Positions 19,497-35,949 of a stretch of 36,084 nt of DNA are shown here, one piece after another. This DNA is from Acidobacteriota bacterium (lineage in GTDB: Bacteria; Acidobacteriota; UBA6911; RPQK01; JAJDTT01): NCBI GenBank assembly GCA_022827025.1, contig JAJDTT010000290.1, positions 1 through 36,084 on the forward strand, in the 5' to 3' direction. How positions within the stretch are numbered: the first letter of the stretch is position 1; each line of letters opens with the position of its first letter. Below the pieces are notes generated by a model. It was not told where the DNA came from. It ran no database searches and saw only the letters and a list, made by a program, of their open reading frames with translations. The translations under genes were made by a program, and so were the position numbers.

Positions 19497-21254
19497 TCAG
19501 ATTCGCGCCTGGTAAGTGTAGAGTTGGTAGTAGCGGCCCTGCTGCCGGATCAACTCCTCGTGGCCGCCCCGTTCCACGATCTCGCCCGCCTCCACCACCA
19601 GGATCTGGTGAGCCTGGCGAATGGTGCTGAGACGATGGGCGATGACGAAGGTGGTGCGTCCCCGCATCAGCCCGGCCAGACTCTGCTGGATGTAGAGTTC
19701 GCTCTCCGTGTCCAGGTTGGAAGTGGCCTCGTCCAGGATCAGAATCCTGGGATCGGCCAGGAGGGCCCGGGCGATGGAGACCCGCTGGCGCTGGCCTCCC
19801 GAGAGCTTCACGCCGCGCTCCCCGATGAGGGTCTCGAGTCCCTGGTCGAAGTGGTCCGTGAACTCCTTGACATGGGACGCCCGCACCGCTTCCAGCACCT
19901 CCTCCTCGCTGGCCCGGGGCCGGCCGAAGAGGATGTTTTCGCGGATCGTGCCCTCGTACAGGAAGTCGTCCTGCAGCACGACCCCCAGCCGCGAGCGGTA
20001 CGATTGCAGGGTCACCGTGGACAGGTCGCGGCCGTCGACCAGGACCCGGCCCCGGTCCGGCTTCAGGAAGGAGGCGGCCAGGCCGGCCAGGGTGGTCTTG
20101 CCCGATCCGGAGCTCCCCACCAGCGCCGTCACGCTCCCGGCGGGAGCGTCGAAGCTCACTTTCTTCAACACCGGGTTCCCCGGATCGTAGGAGAAGGTCA
20201 CGTCTTGGAAGACGACATGGCCATCCACGTCGTCCAGGACCACGGTCCGGCCCGGGTCGTCGTCCTCCCGCGCCGTCGTCAGGATCTCTTCGCTCCGGTC
20301 GAGCCCGGCGAAGGCCTCGGTGATCTGGCTCCCGATGTTGCCCATCTGGACGATGGGTGCGATGAGGAATCCCAGGAAGAGGGTGAAGGAGACGAAGTCG
20401 CCCACCGTCATCTCGCCCTCCAGGATCATGGTGCTCCCCAGCCCCATGATCCCCACGCTGGCCAGTCCCAGCAGCAGCGTCGACCCGCTGGTGACCAGGC
20501 TGGTGGCGGTGAGGGACTTCCGGACGTTGTTGAAGATCCTCGCCACGCCTCTTTCGAAGACGCTGATCTCCTGGCGCTCGGCGCTGAACCCCTTGATGAC
20601 CCGGATGCCGCCCAGGGATTCGGCGAGCCGGCCGGTGACGTCGGCGTTGATCTTGCCCCGCTCGCGGAAGATGGGCCGGATGTAACCGAAGGCCTTCAGC
20701 GAGATCAGCCCCAGGATGGTGAGGGGAACCAGGGTGTAGAGCGTCATCAAGACGCTGATCCTGAAGAGGAAGAAGAGAGATCCGATGGCGGTCAGGACTC
20801 CGCCGAAGAGGTGGACGAGTCCCGTGCCGACCAGGTTCCGGACCCCCTCCACGTCGGTCATGATCCGGGAGACCAGCTCCCCCGACTTGGTGTTGTCGAA
20901 GAACCGGATGGGCAGATAGATGATGTGGCGCTGGACCTGCGACCGGAGCAGGGAAATCAGGTGTTGGGCCTCCACGCTCAGGAGCTTGGTCAGGAAGAAG
21001 GAGCTGAAAGACTGAACCGCGATGGCAACCGTCACGCCGGCCAGCAGCAGGCGGAGCAACTCGGTGTCGCCTTTGCCGATGACGTCGTCGACGAGGAACT
21101 TGCTCGCGGCCGGCAGGGCGAGACCCGCCAACCGGTTCAGCAGAATCAGGGCCAATCCCAGCAAGAGCAGCTTGCGGCGCGGCCAGATGATCTTCCTGAA
21201 GGCATAGCGGACGGTGGTGAGAGAGGGCTTCTTCCTGCTCTTTCGTGATCGCAT
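19497..21254 (-). CDS. ABC exporter, fused permease-ATPase (MsbA/LmrA type)
   Basis: A 585-residue half-transporter. Residues 20-310 hold six transmembrane helices of the type I exporter fold (ABC_membrane). The nucleotide-binding domain has Walker A GSSGSGKT (380-387), LSGGQ (484-488), Walker B ILILDEAT with Asp508 and Glu509, and the H-loop His540 (IAHR). FFDNTKSGELVSRIMTDV is the coupling-helix region typical of MsbA-like lipid or drug exporters. The ATG at 21254 is preferred; the only longer start is a TTG 23 codons upstream with no ribosome binding site. It begins the minus-strand transport cluster. The exported compound is unknown; lipid-linked or amphipathic molecules are typical. Confidence 0.92.
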   Translation of the reverse strand: MRSRKSRKKPSLTTVRYAFRKIIWPRRKLLLLGLALILLNRLAGLALPAASKFLVDDVIGKGDTELLRLLLAGVTVAIAVQSFSSFFLTKLLSVEAQHLISLLRSQVQRHIIYLPIRFFDNTKSGELVSRIMTDVEGVRNLVGTGLVHLFGGVLTAIGSLFFLFRISVLMTLYTLVPLTILGLISLKAFGYIRPIFRERGKINADVTGRLAESLGGIRVIKGFSAERQEISVFERGVARIFNNVRKSLTATSLVTSGSTLLLGLASVGIMGLGSTMILEGEMTVGDFVSFTLFLGFLIAPIVQMGNIGSQITEAFAGLDRSEEILTTAREDDDPGRTVVLDDVDGHVVFQDVTFSYDPGNPVLKKVSFDAPAGSVTALVGSSGSGKTTLAGLAASFLKPDRGRVLVDGRDLSTVTLQSYRSRLGVVLQDDFLYEGTIRENILFGRPRASEEEVLEAVRASHVKEFTDHFDQGLETLIGERGVKLSGGQRQRVSIARALLADPRILILDEATSNLDTESELYIQQSLAGLMRGRTTFVIAHRLSTIRQAHQILVVEAGEIVERGGHEELIRQQGRYYQLYTYQARI

Positions 21255-21338
21255 AGGGAGTCCGGAGGGGGAGACGGTGCGTCCCCAAGAGGCGGCCTCA
21301 TTCTTACCGATTCGGGAAACCAATTCCAGAAAAGCTCA

Positions 21339-21366
21339 GGAGGGGGACTTTCCTGTCCCCCCCTCC
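21339..21366. repeat. G-rich hairpin, copy 1
   Basis: A GGAGGGGGAC arm, loop TTTCCT, and arm GTCCCCCCCTCC. This is one of three copies of the same hairpin in the window (the others are at 28501-28524 and 35925-35949), all with ACTTTC in the loop region and the same orientation. Here it lies upstream of both the ABC exporter and the sigma factor rather than at a gene end, which argues for a REP-like element over a dedicated terminator. Confidence 0.75.
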
Positions 21367-21391
21367 TTCCCGCGAGCACCATTGGGAGTTC

Positions 21392-21423
21392 GTCAGAATT
21401 TACTATCGATAGTAAATTCTGAC
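21392..21423. promoter_or_regulatory. Perfect 32-bp palindrome between ABC exporter and sigma factor
   Basis: The half-site GTCAGAATTTACTATC is followed directly by its exact reverse complement, without a spacer. It is AT-rich, unlike its surroundings, and sits in the 319-bp divergent gap (21255-21573), about 150 bp upstream of the sigma factor start and 26 bp after the G-rich hairpin. A smaller inverted repeat (TTTTCC/GGAAAA) follows at about 21429-21447. It could be an operator for a dimeric regulator, a recombination/attachment site, or a palindromic repeat element. The symmetry is certain; the function is not. Confidence 0.7.
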
Positions 21424-21573
21424 CGACTTTTCCCATTTATGGAAAACACTGTTCCTTTTCGGAGGTTGGAAAATCAGAAGAAAAGGGCTGACGGCGAGGT
21501 TTTCAAGGTGGTTCGTGATCCACCACTGAAGATCATGTGTAAGAAATCCGCGTTCTTGGCGACTATCTCTAAT

Positions 21574-22116
21574 ATGCGCTGCCGTGAGCACAAGGGGGAT
21601 GCCAAACCGAGCCGGGAAGAGCTCTACCGGGAGATCGCCGGTTCGTTCGAAGCCCCACTTCAACGTCTGGCCCGCGCGTATGAGGCGAATGCGGAAAACC
21701 GGAAAGACCTCCTGCAGGAAATTCACCTTGCCCTCTGGCGCAGTCTCAAGGGATACGACCGAAGGTGCTCGGTGCGAACCTGGGTCTATCGTGTGGCCCA
21801 CAACACCGCCACGTCGCATGTCCTGCGGCAGCGCCGTGTTGCCCGGAAATTCGTGACCCTTGAAGAGATTGAATCCGCCCCCGACGAAAGCTCAGGCGAA
21901 GACGCGGCGATCCGGAGGGACGCGCTACAGCGACTCCTGGCGCTGATTCGGCGCCTCAAGCCCATCGACCGGCAGATCATGCTTTCGTACCTTGAAGGCA
22001 TGGACGGCGCATCGATCGGGGAGATCACGGGCATAACGCCGGGGAATGCTGCCACGAGAGTTCATCGCATCAAGAAAATCCTGGCTCGCCGTTTCCAAGA
22101 TGGGTGTTCGTCATGA
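21574..22116 (+). CDS. ECF-like sigma-70 family RNA polymerase sigma factor
   Basis: 180 residues from the ATG at 21574. An in-frame ATG at 21535 is the other reasonable choice; neither has a clear ribosome binding site, and the frame stays open upstream to 21214 without family character. Region 2 spans about 17-88 (DLLQEIHLALWRSLKGYD, RTWVYRVAHNTATSHV), and region 4 about 118-172 (RLKPIDRQIMLSYLEGM, ASIGEITGITPGNAATRVHRIKKIL). There is no region 1.1 or 3, as in ECF sigma factors. It overlaps the downstream membrane protein gene by 4 bp (22113-22116), the arrangement used by sigma/anti-sigma pairs. It probably directs RNA polymerase to a small regulon in response to an envelope signal. Confidence 0.88.
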   Translation: MRCREHKGDAKPSREELYREIAGSFEAPLQRLARAYEANAENRKDLLQEIHLALWRSLKGYDRRCSVRTWVYRVAHNTATSHVLRQRRVARKFVTLEEIESAPDESSGEDAAIRRDALQRLLALIRRLKPIDRQIMLSYLEGMDGASIGEITGITPGNAATRVHRIKKILARRFQDGCSS

Positions 22117-22688
22117 TCCATGATTTCCCCGAGAACGATTTGAGAAGAACCTGGCAAGAGCAGACTGTTTTCGAAGCTCCCATAGATATTGACAAGATCA
22201 CACAGCAAGCTCGCCGGTTTCAGCGAAGGATCCGATGGCGAAATCGCTTGGAATACGCTGCTGCCGTAATCGGGGCGGTTGTCTATTTCGTATACATATG
22301 GGTGTTTGAAAGCCCGTGGATACGGGCAGGGTCACTGCTATTTGTGTTCGGCGGTCTTTCAATTATCTATCAGCTCCACAAGAGAGGATCCTCCAGGACG
22401 GTGCCGACAGGCGCTAATTGTGCGGAATTCCACCGGAGCGAGTTGCAGCGTCAGCGAGATGCGTTGCTTAGCATCATGCGGTGGTACGTGGGGCCGCTGA
22501 TCCCGGGAGCGGTCGTCTTCAATATCGGTATAGCCGCGGTTCACCCCTGGGGTCCCTGGCTTGTGTTGAGTCTTGCAGCTGCGGGTTGGGTCGCTCTAGG
22601 CCTAATGGTCTACATGTTAAATCAACGGGGAGCACGGAAACTTCAGCGCGAGATCGACGAACTGCAGGAACTGCTCCAAGGGCGGTGA
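22113..22688 (+). CDS. Four-helix membrane protein, possible anti-sigma partner
   Basis: 191 residues from the ATG at 22113, inside the TGA of the sigma gene (ATGA overlap). The cytoplasmic N-terminus is charged (residues 1-46, with RFQRRIRWRNR before the first helix). Four hydrophobic segments follow, at about 47-65, 71-87, 125-143 and 148-168, and a helical C-terminal tail with acidic and basic residues (KLQREIDELQELLQ). I do not recognise the family, and it has no HxxxCxxC zinc anti-sigma motif. Position and topology suggest it holds or senses for the sigma factor. The role is inferred from the gene order alone. Confidence 0.75.
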   Translation: MIHDFPENDLRRTWQEQTVFEAPIDIDKITQQARRFQRRIRWRNRLEYAAAVIGAVVYFVYIWVFESPWIRAGSLLFVFGGLSIIYQLHKRGSSRTVPTGANCAEFHRSELQRQRDALLSIMRWYVGPLIPGAVVFNIGIAAVHPWGPWLVLSLAAAGWVALGLMVYMLNQRGARKLQREIDELQELLQGR

Positions 22689-22767
22689 TCACGCTTGGCG
22701 GCTGAATTTCTCAGACTCGGAATGTTAGAATCGAATGGCTTCTACTCTCACGTCCGGGGAGGACTCG

Positions 22768-25700
22768 ATGGAGTTGGGAAACTGGAGATTTCCGGCGCCG
22801 TGGCTGCTTGCGGTGTTGCTTTCCCAGCCTCTCATCGCGGGTTCGGCGGACGACGCCGAGTATTTCGAGAAGAAGATCCGGCCGCTCCTGGCCGAGCATT
22901 GCTACGCCTGTCACTCCAGCACCAGCCAGCCGGTCATGGGCGGGCTGATCCTGGACCAGGAGGAGGGCTTCCGCAAGGGGGGCAGCCGCGGCTCTCCCGT
23001 CGTTACCGGCGATCCCGAGTCGAGCCTGCTGATTCGCGCCGTCACCCACCAGGACGAAAAGCTGCGCATGCCGTTGGCGGGCCGGCTTCCGGATGAGGAG
23101 ATCGCCCTGCTCACCGATTGGGTCCGCATGGGCGCCCCCTGGGGCGTCACCGCCGATCCGGACCCTTCGGCTTCCGAGGCGGAGGGCTTCTGGGCCTTCG
23201 AGCCCCCGGTGGAGCCATCGTGGCCGCAGGTCCGGGACGCCGGTTGGGTTCGTACCCCCGTCGACCGATTCATCCTGGCCCGCCTGGAAGCCGAAGGACT
23301 GGAGCCGGCGCCGGCGGCTGACCGGCGGACCCTCATCCGGAGGGCCACCTTCGACCTGACCGGCCTTCCGCCCACCATCGAGGAGATCCGGAATTTCCTC
23401 CAGGATCGCTCGCCGGGAGCCTATGCCCGGTTGATCGAGCGCCTCCTGTCCTCGCCGCGCTACGGAGAGCGCTGGGGCCGCCACTGGCTGGACGTGGCCC
23501 GTTACGCCGATTCCAACGGACTGGACGAGAACATGGCGTATACGACGGCCTTCCGCTACCGGGACTACGTGGTCCAGGCCTTCAACCGGGACAAGCCCTA
23601 CGATCAGTTCGTGCGGGAGCAGTTGGCGGGAGATCTCCTGCCCGATACGGGTGACCTGGAAACCACGCTGGAGCGCCGGACGGCCACCGGATTCCTCTCC
23701 CTGGGTCCCAAGATGCTGGCCGAAGACGACCCCGTGAAGATGCGGATGGACATCATCGACGAACAGCTCGACACCAGCTTCCGGGCGTTCCTGGGGCTGA
23801 CCATGGGCTGCGCCCGTTGCCACGACCACAAGTTCGATCCCATCTCGATCAACGATTACTACTCGCTGGCCGGAATCTTCAGGAGCTCCAAGACCATGGT
23901 GCATCACGACGTGGTGGCCGAGTGGCATGAGCATGTCCTGGCGCCGGAGGACGACCGCCTCCGGCTGCGGCAACAGCGGGAGCAGGTCGAAGCCAAGACC
24001 AAGGCCGTCGAAGCCGTCACCAAGCGGGAGAACCGGAAGCTGGTGGAAGAGGGCCGCGCGCGGGCGGGGGACTATCTGCTGGCCGCGCAGGAGTTGGCCG
24101 ACTCCGAAAAGGTCCGGCTCAAGAGCGTGTTCGAAGGACGGAGTCCCGACCCCGGATCCCTGACCATGCGGAAGGCGGGGCGCTGGGACCGGGGAAACGT
24201 CGAGCGGCAACTGGAGAAGGGAAAGACGAACGTTCCCGAAGCCGGGAGTTCCGACGCGCCTCCCGACGCCTATTTCGCCGAATATGACCTGCAGGTCCCC
24301 GCGGCCGGTCCCTACCAGTTGGAGTTTCTGGAAGCCGAGACCGGTGCCGGCACCGCCGATATCGTCCTCAACGGGACATTGGTCAAGCGGGGGATCGAGG
24401 CCATCGAGAACCGCACCGCCTCGCCTGATGCGGGCGGTTGGATGGTGGCCGGGGTCTTCGACCTGAAGGCCGGACACAACGTACTTCGCCTAGAGCACAA
24501 GAATCGCTATCCCTATTTCGAGAAGTTCCTCTTGGCTCCCAATCCGCTGCCGGACGGTGCCCCCATTCCCAGGACCCTGATCCAGGTGGCCCATCGGGAC
24601 GATCTGAACCCGGTCTTTCTGAAGCAGTGGATCGACCGCCTGCGCCGGAGCCGCGGGGCGCCCTATTCGGTGCTCTACGCCTGGCACGCCCGGGCCGGGG
24701 GCAAGTCGCGGGAGGGTTGGGTCTCTCCGGCAGCCAGGCTTTTCGAGGGCCATGAGGCGGCCGATCTGGGGGAGCTGGCCGCCCACTACCAGGAGCAGTT
24801 CGGGCGGGCCGAGGAGGCTTGGCGGGTGCTGGTTGGCGACCGGGAAATCGCCCGCCGGAAATTCAGCACCGTCCGGACCGACGAGGAGACCGAAGAGACC
24901 AAGCTGGAGGATCCGGCCCTGGAAGCCATGAGGGCGATCCTCTACGAGAAGTGGGGGCCCTTCCGGCCGCCCGAAAAGACCACGGAGTACTTTCCCGAGG
25001 CCGCTCTCCGGGAGCTGGAAGTCCTGGAAGAGGAACGGAAGAAGCTGGAGGAGGGGCTGCCGAAGCTTCCCACGGCCATGGGAATCACCGAAGGCCAGCA
25101 GATCGACGACCTGGCCATCCATCTGCGCGGCAGCCATTGGGACCTGGGAGAGAAAGTCTCCCGCGGCTTTCCGGGGCTGGGCCGCAAGTCGCTGGAACAG
25201 TTGCGCGACCCGGCCAGCAGCGGACGTCTGGAGCTGGCGGATTGGATGACCCGCGACGACAACCCCCTGGCGGCCCGGGTCATGGCCAACCGGATCTGGC
25301 GCTGGCACATGGGGCGGGGCCTCGTCTCCTCCACCGACAACTTCGGCCGGCTGGGCAACGCTCCCACTCACCCCGGTCTGCTCGACTGGCTGGCGATCCG
25401 GTTCGTGGAAGGGAACTGGTCCGTGAAGCGGATGCACCGCCTCATCATGCTTTCGGCCACGTATCGGATGAGCAGCCGCTACTCCCCGCAGGGGTCCGAA
25501 AAGGATCCTGAGAATCGCCTGTTCTGGCGGATGAATCGGCGCCGGCTGGAAGCGGAGGCGATTCGCGACTCCATCCTGGCCGTTTCCGCCAACCTGGACC
25601 TGGAACTGGGAGGATCGCTGTTGGGTCAGAGCGGCCGGGGTTACATCCGCCCGGGGGTCCGTTACGATTGGAATCGAAGGTCGGTCTATCTTCCGGTGGT

Positions 25701-26085
25701 GCGCAGTTCCATGTACGATTTCCTGCGGGCCTTCGATTTTGCCGATCCGTCGGTGACGAACGGGGACCGGGGCGCCAGCGTCGTGGCTCCCCAGGCGCTC
25801 TTCATCATGAACGATTCCGTCGTGCTGGAGAACTCCCGCCGGATGGCCTCCCGGTTGCTGGCCCGGGAAGAACTGGGCGAGACCGGGAGGGTCCGGGTGG
25901 CCTACGAAAGCGCCCTGGGCCGATTGCCCGACGAGAGGGAATCCCGGCAGGCCCTGGAGTTCGTGGCCCGCATGGATGCGGCCTGGAAAGAGCGGGTAGC
26001 GGATCCCGGCGAACGCCGACTCCGATCCTGGCAGGGATTCTGCCAGGCGTTGATGGCCTCGAGCGAATTCGTGTATCTGAATTAG
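22768..26085 (+). CDS. PSCyt1-PSCyt2-PSD1 protein with CBM6/35-like insert
   Basis: 1105 residues. The start at 22768 is chosen for its ribosome binding site (GGGGAGGA, 6 bp upstream) and because it places a signal peptide (WLLAVLLSQPLIAG) at the N-terminus. PSCyt1 covers about 28-125, with the heme-c motif CYACH at 45-49. PSCyt2 covers about 140-370, with WLDVARYADSNG and a second CxxCH in CARCHDHKFDP (348-352). A charged helical linker leads to a beta-rich insert at about 499-590 (AEYDLQVPAAGPYQLEFLEAE, DIVLNGTLV, HNVLRLEH), which looks like a CBM6/35-type sugar-binding module. PSD1 spans about 780-1040 (NPLAARVMANRIWRWHMG, THPGLLDWLA). The reaction is unknown. It is followed 12 bp later by a DUF1501 gene, as in the 1-4260 pair. 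Confidence 0.93.
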   Translation: MELGNWRFPAPWLLAVLLSQPLIAGSADDAEYFEKKIRPLLAEHCYACHSSTSQPVMGGLILDQEEGFRKGGSRGSPVVTGDPESSLLIRAVTHQDEKLRMPLAGRLPDEEIALLTDWVRMGAPWGVTADPDPSASEAEGFWAFEPPVEPSWPQVRDAGWVRTPVDRFILARLEAEGLEPAPAADRRTLIRRATFDLTGLPPTIEEIRNFLQDRSPGAYARLIERLLSSPRYGERWGRHWLDVARYADSNGLDENMAYTTAFRYRDYVVQAFNRDKPYDQFVREQLAGDLLPDTGDLETTLERRTATGFLSLGPKMLAEDDPVKMRMDIIDEQLDTSFRAFLGLTMGCARCHDHKFDPISINDYYSLAGIFRSSKTMVHHDVVAEWHEHVLAPEDDRLRLRQQREQVEAKTKAVEAVTKRENRKLVEEGRARAGDYLLAAQELADSEKVRLKSVFEGRSPDPGSLTMRKAGRWDRGNVERQLEKGKTNVPEAGSSDAPPDAYFAEYDLQVPAAGPYQLEFLEAETGAGTADIVLNGTLVKRGIEAIENRTASPDAGGWMVAGVFDLKAGHNVLRLEHKNRYPYFEKFLLAPNPLPDGAPIPRTLIQVAHRDDLNPVFLKQWIDRLRRSRGAPYSVLYAWHARAGGKSREGWVSPAARLFEGHEAADLGELAAHYQEQFGRAEEAWRVLVGDREIARRKFSTVRTDEETEETKLEDPALEAMRAILYEKWGPFRPPEKTTEYFPEAALRELEVLEEERKKLEEGLPKLPTAMGITEGQQIDDLAIHLRGSHWDLGEKVSRGFPGLGRKSLEQLRDPASSGRLELADWMTRDDNPLAARVMANRIWRWHMGRGLVSSTDNFGRLGNAPTHPGLLDWLAIRFVEGNWSVKRMHRLIMLSATYRMSSRYSPQGSEKDPENRLFWRMNRRRLEAEAIRDSILAVSANLDLELGGSLLGQSGRGYIRPGVRYDWNRRSVYLPVVRSSMYDFLRAFDFADPSVTNGDRGASVVAPQALFIMNDSVVLENSRRMASRLLAREELGETGRVRVAYESALGRLPDERESRQALEFVARMDAAWKERVADPGERRLRSWQGFCQALMASSEFVYLN

Positions 26086-35924: not shown

Positions 35925-35949
35925 GAGGGGGGACTTTCCTGTCCCCCCT
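35925..35949. repeat. G-rich hairpin, copy 3
   Basis: GAGGGGGGAC, loop TTTCCT, GTCCCCCCTT, starting at the base after the hydroxyacid dehydrogenase stop. The sequence is nearly identical to copy 1 (21339-21366). The CTTCTTAG that follows is pyrimidine-rich but has no long T-run, so terminator function is possible but weak. Confidence 0.75.

Follow-up and report, generated by a model that had tools for sequence, protein, structure and literature searches.

Paired palindromes in an uncultured acidobacterial genus as predicted operators, with an XRE-like protein as candidate regulator

Results and discussion

A perfect palindrome between an exporter gene and a sigma factor gene

The window analysed here is a stretch of 36,084 nucleotides from the draft genome of an Acidobacteriota bacterium, and its features around the palindrome of interest (P1) are listed in Table 1. 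For comparison we used four genomes of the genus, namely the window's own (G000) and three congeners (G001, G002 and G003), all of them drafts that are 90-99% complete. P1 lies between two divergent genes, one for an ABC exporter and one for an ECF sigma factor. The start of the sigma gene was placed at the ATG given in the table because another ATG, at 21439, falls inside the second palindrome, P2. By sequence, the product of the gene that follows the sigma gene looks like a membrane protein, and its two NCBIfam matches are far below the cut-off. A promoter scan of the gap region, 21200-21620, gave no promoter-like site.

Table 1 Features of the window around the paired palindromes (positions in the window).
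Feature	Position	Strand	Remarks
ABC exporter (ABC_membrane + ABC_tran)	19500..21254	-	Distance from ATG to pair 144 bp (G001, 151 bp)
1331-bp stretch with the pair, the sigma gene and the membrane-protein-like gene	21362..22692	.	Equivalent gap in G001 is 170 bp
P1, perfect 32-bp palindrome	21392..21423	.	Family core TTTACTATCGATAGTAAA at 21399-21416
Spacer between the P1 and P2 cores, TTCTGACCGACT	21417..21428	.	
P2, weaker palindrome TTTCCCATTTATGGAAAA	21429..21446	.	Centre 30 bp from the P1 centre
ECF sigma factor	21574..22116	+	TIGR02937, 3.7e-21; start codon inferred, ATG 21574, 127 bp from the pair
Gene after sigma, read from sequence as membrane protein	22104..22688	+	No Pfam match
PSCyt1/PSCyt2/PSD1 cytochrome-type gene	22735..26085	+	

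The original prediction described P1 as an exact, spacerless 32-bp palindrome that is AT-rich in a high-GC background and too symmetric to be a product of chance, and all of this is borne out. Immediately after a 16-bp arm (GTCAGAATTTACTATC, 21392-21407) comes its exact reverse complement (21408-21423). The next longest perfect arm in the whole window measures 7 bp, and the longest across 100 Markov-1 simulations of the window is 11 bp, confirming that the palindrome is real and exceeds chance. GC content is 0.42-0.47 in the 100-bp steps around P1 (21350-21549), as against 0.57-0.76 in the steps covering 20000-21299. Searching the 5.33-Mb assembly with the P1 core (22-24-mers, up to three mismatches) gave no second occurrence.

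The common unit is a pair of 18-bp palindromes

Degenerate relatives of P1 and P2 recur as fixed-spacing pairs in G000 and its congeners. In the family unit, two palindromes of 18 bp, TTNNCTATNNATAGNNAA, have their centres 30-31 bp apart (three helical turns), and the half-site derived from 26 aligned pairs is TTNNCTAT. In those 26 pairs, the base three positions outside the C is a T in all 104 halves, and a T also stands four bases outside in 98 of the 104. Across the 52 palindromes, symmetry is strong within the 18-bp core, with the exception of its centre pair (0.13), and falls to near chance farther out. Counting outwards from the centre, symmetry runs without a break for 16 bp in the window's P1 and for 6 in the next of the 52 palindromes measured. 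The spacerless, perfect 32-bp palindrome is not what defines the family, and the common core is 18 bp. We suspect that the perfection of the outer arms of P1 came late, for example via template switching. Many spacers of the other pairs, judged by eye from those listed, carry a GAGTCA/GGYCA-like sequence.

The arms of the palindromes covary, with a score of 0.194 as against 0.135 after shuffling and none of 500 shuffles as high, in an alignment whose rows are related and with a tool that counts G-T as a pair. Arm pairs changed on both sides are not clearly raised in number (7 versus 5.3 in shuffles; 43/500), and when orthologous pairs are compared, two Watson-Crick types appear at just 6 of 112 arm positions. 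Against a covariance model of the unit, the window pair (21399-21446) scores 50.6 bits (E 6.3e-6), being itself one of the model's 26 training pairs.

Pairs recur at fixed spacing in four genomes

With at most one mismatch, the TTNNCTATNNATAGNNAA pattern has 5 sites in G000, 10 in G002, 10 in G003 and 21 in G001, compared with 0, 1, 2 and 1 sites, in the same order, for a reversed-pattern control. Most of the sites are paired. Starting from 45 anchors, a scan with a symmetric weight matrix made from these anchors (score of at least 8, range 9-120 bp) located partners at offsets of 31 bp (34 cases), 30 bp (7), 21 bp (2) and 35 bp (1) only, at a background of about 8e-6 per position; these counts run from anchor to partner, so that a pair is counted twice when both of its members are anchors, and they come from loci chosen for containing anchors. 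The covariance model, built from the 26 pairs, matches 27 places (five in G000, ten in G001, six in G002 and six in G003), one of which, G000:C88, is outside the training set. The same search found pairs in none of 56 other relatives, under strict filters and with at most 100 candidates scored per genome, settings under which weak pairs may be missed. Several of the G000 copies are degenerate. Two further pairs have centres 21 bp, or two helical turns, apart (L057 3881-3919 in G000 and L072 4229-4267 in G003).

Among the matches listed by literature searches there was no description of this paired-palindrome site family. In viral contigs, the full pattern with 31-bp spacing has no match and the bare core pair occurs in at least 120 stretches; of 80 core-pair loci among the matches listed, none has the outer TT in three or more of its four halves and three have ACA in two or more. 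This geometry scan of viral contigs says little.

The original prediction had proposed that copy number would tell an operator (few copies) from a repeat (many copies). The counts do not separate the two cases, because the P1 core is unique in its genome and yet 27 degenerate pairs are spread over four genomes. Degenerate pairs at fixed spacing are what a regulon would show.

Shared places and neighbouring genes

Seven of 13 places are common to two to four species. Pairs lie at a DUF1501 gene and at an XRE gene in all four genomes (the former identified by Pfam in two of its four copies and by similarity in the others), at cytochrome c, NfeD and TauD genes in three genomes each, and at RhaT/SBP genes and in the exporter gap in two genomes each. 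The other six places, three in G001 and three in G002, are each seen in a single genome. The genes that adjoin the pairs are mixed and comprise the exporter, cytochromes, TauD, NfeD, RhaT/SBP, a pectate lyase, a P450 and an LRR protein, with no obvious common pathway. By rough gene calls, most pairs lie upstream of at least one of their flanking genes. A scan of one copy of the DUF1501 gene detected no promoter-like site upstream. The sequence, pairing and spacing of the sites, the places that they share and the single-copy HTH gene beside one of them are direct results of computation.

The NfeD frame of G001 (L081 2615-3103) spans only 162 aa, whereas G000 and G003 have full-length copies, and is possibly a broken gene or an assembly error. 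Its start is about 1 kb from the pair, which makes the G001 NfeD case weaker.

The pair in the exporter gap may predate the sigma gene

In the three congeners the exporter is 94-97% identical, and the next conserved block is the start region of the PSCyt gene. The gap between these two genes in G001 holds two degenerate relatives of the palindromes 31 bp apart, without a sigma gene; no pair was found in the exporter gap of G002 and G003. The closest relatives of the sigma factor in the three congeners are 22-36% identical, and GC3 is 0.70 for the sigma gene and 0.60 for the membrane-like gene, as against 0.84-0.91 for four neighbours. Among plasmids, 11 records have ECF-type matches to the sigma factor. 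The sigma and membrane-like genes are missing from the matching gap of all three congeners.

From these comparisons, the sigma and membrane-like genes look like a later insertion, and we conclude that the pair was probably present in the exporter gap before the sigma gene arrived; loss of the sigma gene from the three congeners, instead of gain in G000, is a possible alternative. Because a congener has the pair there without the sigma gene, and because the sigma and membrane-like genes look inserted later, the window pair more likely serves the ABC exporter than the sigma factor. The original prediction of an operator for either the sigma operon or the exporter is thus partly supported: an operator is the better reading, but we rejected one private to the sigma factor as the principal interpretation, because in G001 the pair occupies a gap that lacks the gene. 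Lying between divergent genes, the pair would most likely control the exporter, and the newly arrived sigma gene may now also be under its influence.

A candidate regulator encoded next to one of the pairs

The XRE gene at one of the shared places encodes a protein of 122-132 aa that is present as a single copy in each of the four genomes. Its match to HTH_3 (E 2e-4, 21.8 bits, from a scan of the sequence without residue 1) is just under the Pfam cut-off of 23. The copies are 84-86% identical to that of G002, with an almost invariant HTH. The structure model is poor overall (mean pLDDT 66.6) and predicts a helix at 88-118, mostly of high confidence, along with four short helices of middling confidence; we read the protein as an HTH followed by a C-terminal coiled-coil helix. 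A fold search with this model gave no confident match, the top one being an XRE protein at an unusable E of 4.1, and a profile of the protein matched no solved structure. The same profile has one match in each of the four genus genomes and none in 56 others at E 1e-6, and a wider scan of genome contigs returned two relatives, at positions equal to those of the G002:C605 and G001:C23 copies. A viral origin of the protein was rejected, with no relative found in viral contigs and none in phages. On plasmids, the nearest relative is the HTH from an S24 peptidase of Thioclava (36% over 57 aa).

A conserved site directly upstream of a regulator's own gene is what would be expected of an autoregulatory operator, and in all four genomes the pair ends 24 bp before the ATG of the XRE gene. 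Mean identity upstream of this gene rises from 0.23-0.27 at -160 to -121 to 1.00 at -40 to -31, inside P2; the P1 member is less conserved (0.47-0.60 in an ungapped comparison in which one copy is shifted by a base). A promoter scan, run for the XRE gene at L063 only, gave a promoter-like TGGACA-16-TACTAT whose -35 falls in P1 and whose -10 falls in P2; just downstream (1700-1728) there is another promoter-like match, and shuffles average 0.2. Upstream of the G000 XRE gene, beyond the pair, lies a gene with a PIN domain (PF01850, 9.1e-16; L121 9889-10275).

The protein and its site resemble autoregulated proteins of the XRE or phage-repressor type (HTH_3) and their operators, in which paired palindromes also lie just upstream of the regulator's own gene and the protein is likewise small, HTH_3-like and equipped with a long C-terminal helix. 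They differ in that the genus protein, at 122-132 aa in every copy, lacks a second domain of the peptidase-like kind and scores just under the Pfam cut-off, and in that the genus sites are also found at many distant genes. With some 14 contexts, it would not be unusual for chance to place a DNA-binding gene beside one of them. The restriction of the XRE gene and the pairs to the same four of 60 genomes is weak evidence, because any genus-specific gene would show it. We put the chance that the XRE-like protein is the binder of the pairs at roughly even.

A model of the paired sites

We consider it probable, on the sequence comparisons above, that the pairs are operators of one dimeric regulator, for which an autoregulated XRE-like protein is the most likely candidate. 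P1 would be one half of a bipartite operator in which one dimer probably binds each 18-bp palindrome with its two half-sites. Because the palindrome centres are three turns apart, the two dimers would lie along one face of the helix and could touch each other. We infer both the binding by a protein and the direction of control. The XRE-like protein probably represses its own gene through the pair 24 bp before the start codon, and a regulator occupying the TGGACA-16-TACTAT site of L063 would block RNA polymerase. The site family would then represent the binding repertoire of one regulator in the genus. What began as an isolated palindrome thus becomes a predicted regulon of an uncultured lineage, for which a candidate regulator can be named.

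Alternative readings of the pairs

An obvious question is whether the pairs are NrdR boxes, the paired palindromes bound by the repressor of ribonucleotide reductase (RNR). In published work on NrdR, the Streptomyces coelicolor boxes have GC pairs at 9/18 and 40/49 and are 31 bp apart (PMC9110341), binding is best at integer-turn spacing (PMC12051234), and a tetramer binds both boxes (PMC9110341, PMC12051234). The geometry is the same as in our pairs: two AT-rich palindromes with a C-N8-G core, C and G being nine positions apart in each box, and centres an integer number of turns (31 bp) apart. Against this, the NrdR model TIGR00244 has no match in the four genus genomes (9 of 14 controls were positive), and the NrdR zinc ribbon PF22811 stays below the cut-off in all four (best 16.9 versus 27.2 bits; 9 of 14 controls above). 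RNR genes were located in all four genomes, and the best site within the 1026 or more bases upstream of each frame scores 3.7, when a true pair scored alongside reaches 19.6 and 14.6. In the NrdR consensus the outer bases are ACA/TGT, from which the outer TT/AA of the genus sites differ, as do their mixed targets and the two cases of 21-bp spacing. We therefore rejected NrdR, the gene not being found in the four genomes and no pair lying upstream of the RNR genes, and regard this reading as extremely improbable. By these gene and RNR-upstream tests, the family appears NrdR-box-like in layout without consisting of NrdR boxes. All four genomes have RNR, although NrdR was not found in them. We would suggest, tentatively and as somewhat less than an even prospect, that an unrelated HTH coiled-coil protein has converged on the geometry of NrdR boxes and runs a genus-specific global regulon in genomes without NrdR. 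If the HTH protein does bind the pairs, the spacing rule of NrdR boxes would be common to two unrelated DNA-binding folds, and genome scans that call NrdR boxes solely by their geometry would also have to look for the nrdR gene.

The alternative that deserves most attention keeps the same kind of operator and assigns it to another regulator, encoded beside none of the sites. Many regulators are encoded away from their own sites, a regulator gene adjoins just one of about 14 contexts in all species, and the adjoining genes are functionally mixed; the invariant 24 bp between site and start codon of the XRE gene in all four genomes, and the overlap of the L063 site with promoter-like sequence, argue for the XRE-like protein instead, and we regard an unlinked regulator as unlikely, if a serious contender. 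A chromosome-organising site of the ParB or Noc kind would fit some 5-10 scattered sites per genome next to mixed genes, but less well the position of most contexts 5' of a gene (by rough gene calls) and of the XRE copy just before a start codon, and is very unlikely. We give marginally less credence still to a mobile palindromic element of the MITE or REP type, scattered by insertion between genes; the original prediction had offered a palindromic repeat as an alternative, and an operator is the better reading of the two. The copies are indeed palindromic, intergenic and scattered, other hairpin repeats are present in gaps, the exporter gap of G002 and G003 has no copy, and six places occur in one genome only. 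Unlike REP/MITE-type repeats, however, the copies are non-clonal rather than near-identical (within-genome identity has a median of 65% and a best value of 82% over 49 positions), their likeness is limited to half-sites, spacing and a weak spacer motif, the spacing is almost invariant at 30-31 (two cases of 21), and the same places, seven of 13, are shared across species. An RNA hairpin or cruciform, acting in a transcript or in supercoiled DNA, is suggested by the window stem, which folds well (-22.7 kcal/mol, z -6.41), and by arms that vary together. Three other members folded are less stable, though, and P1 pairs with P2 in two of the four folded; G-T mismatches are in no clear excess over A-C (27 versus 18 of 416 cells), neither an Rfam match in the window nor a terminator-like site in 21200-21620 was found, and it is not obvious what helical spacing would do in an RNA, all of which makes this reading more improbable than a mobile repeat. 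An operator for one dimeric regulator is hence the reading that we prefer.

Hairpins close to the pairs

A different hairpin, GGGGGACTTTCCTGTCCCCC, lies at 21342-21361 and recurs identically at 35928-35947 of the window. It looks like a dispersed repeat unrelated to P1. Similar GGGAC...GTCCC hairpins adjoin pairs in G001 and G003.
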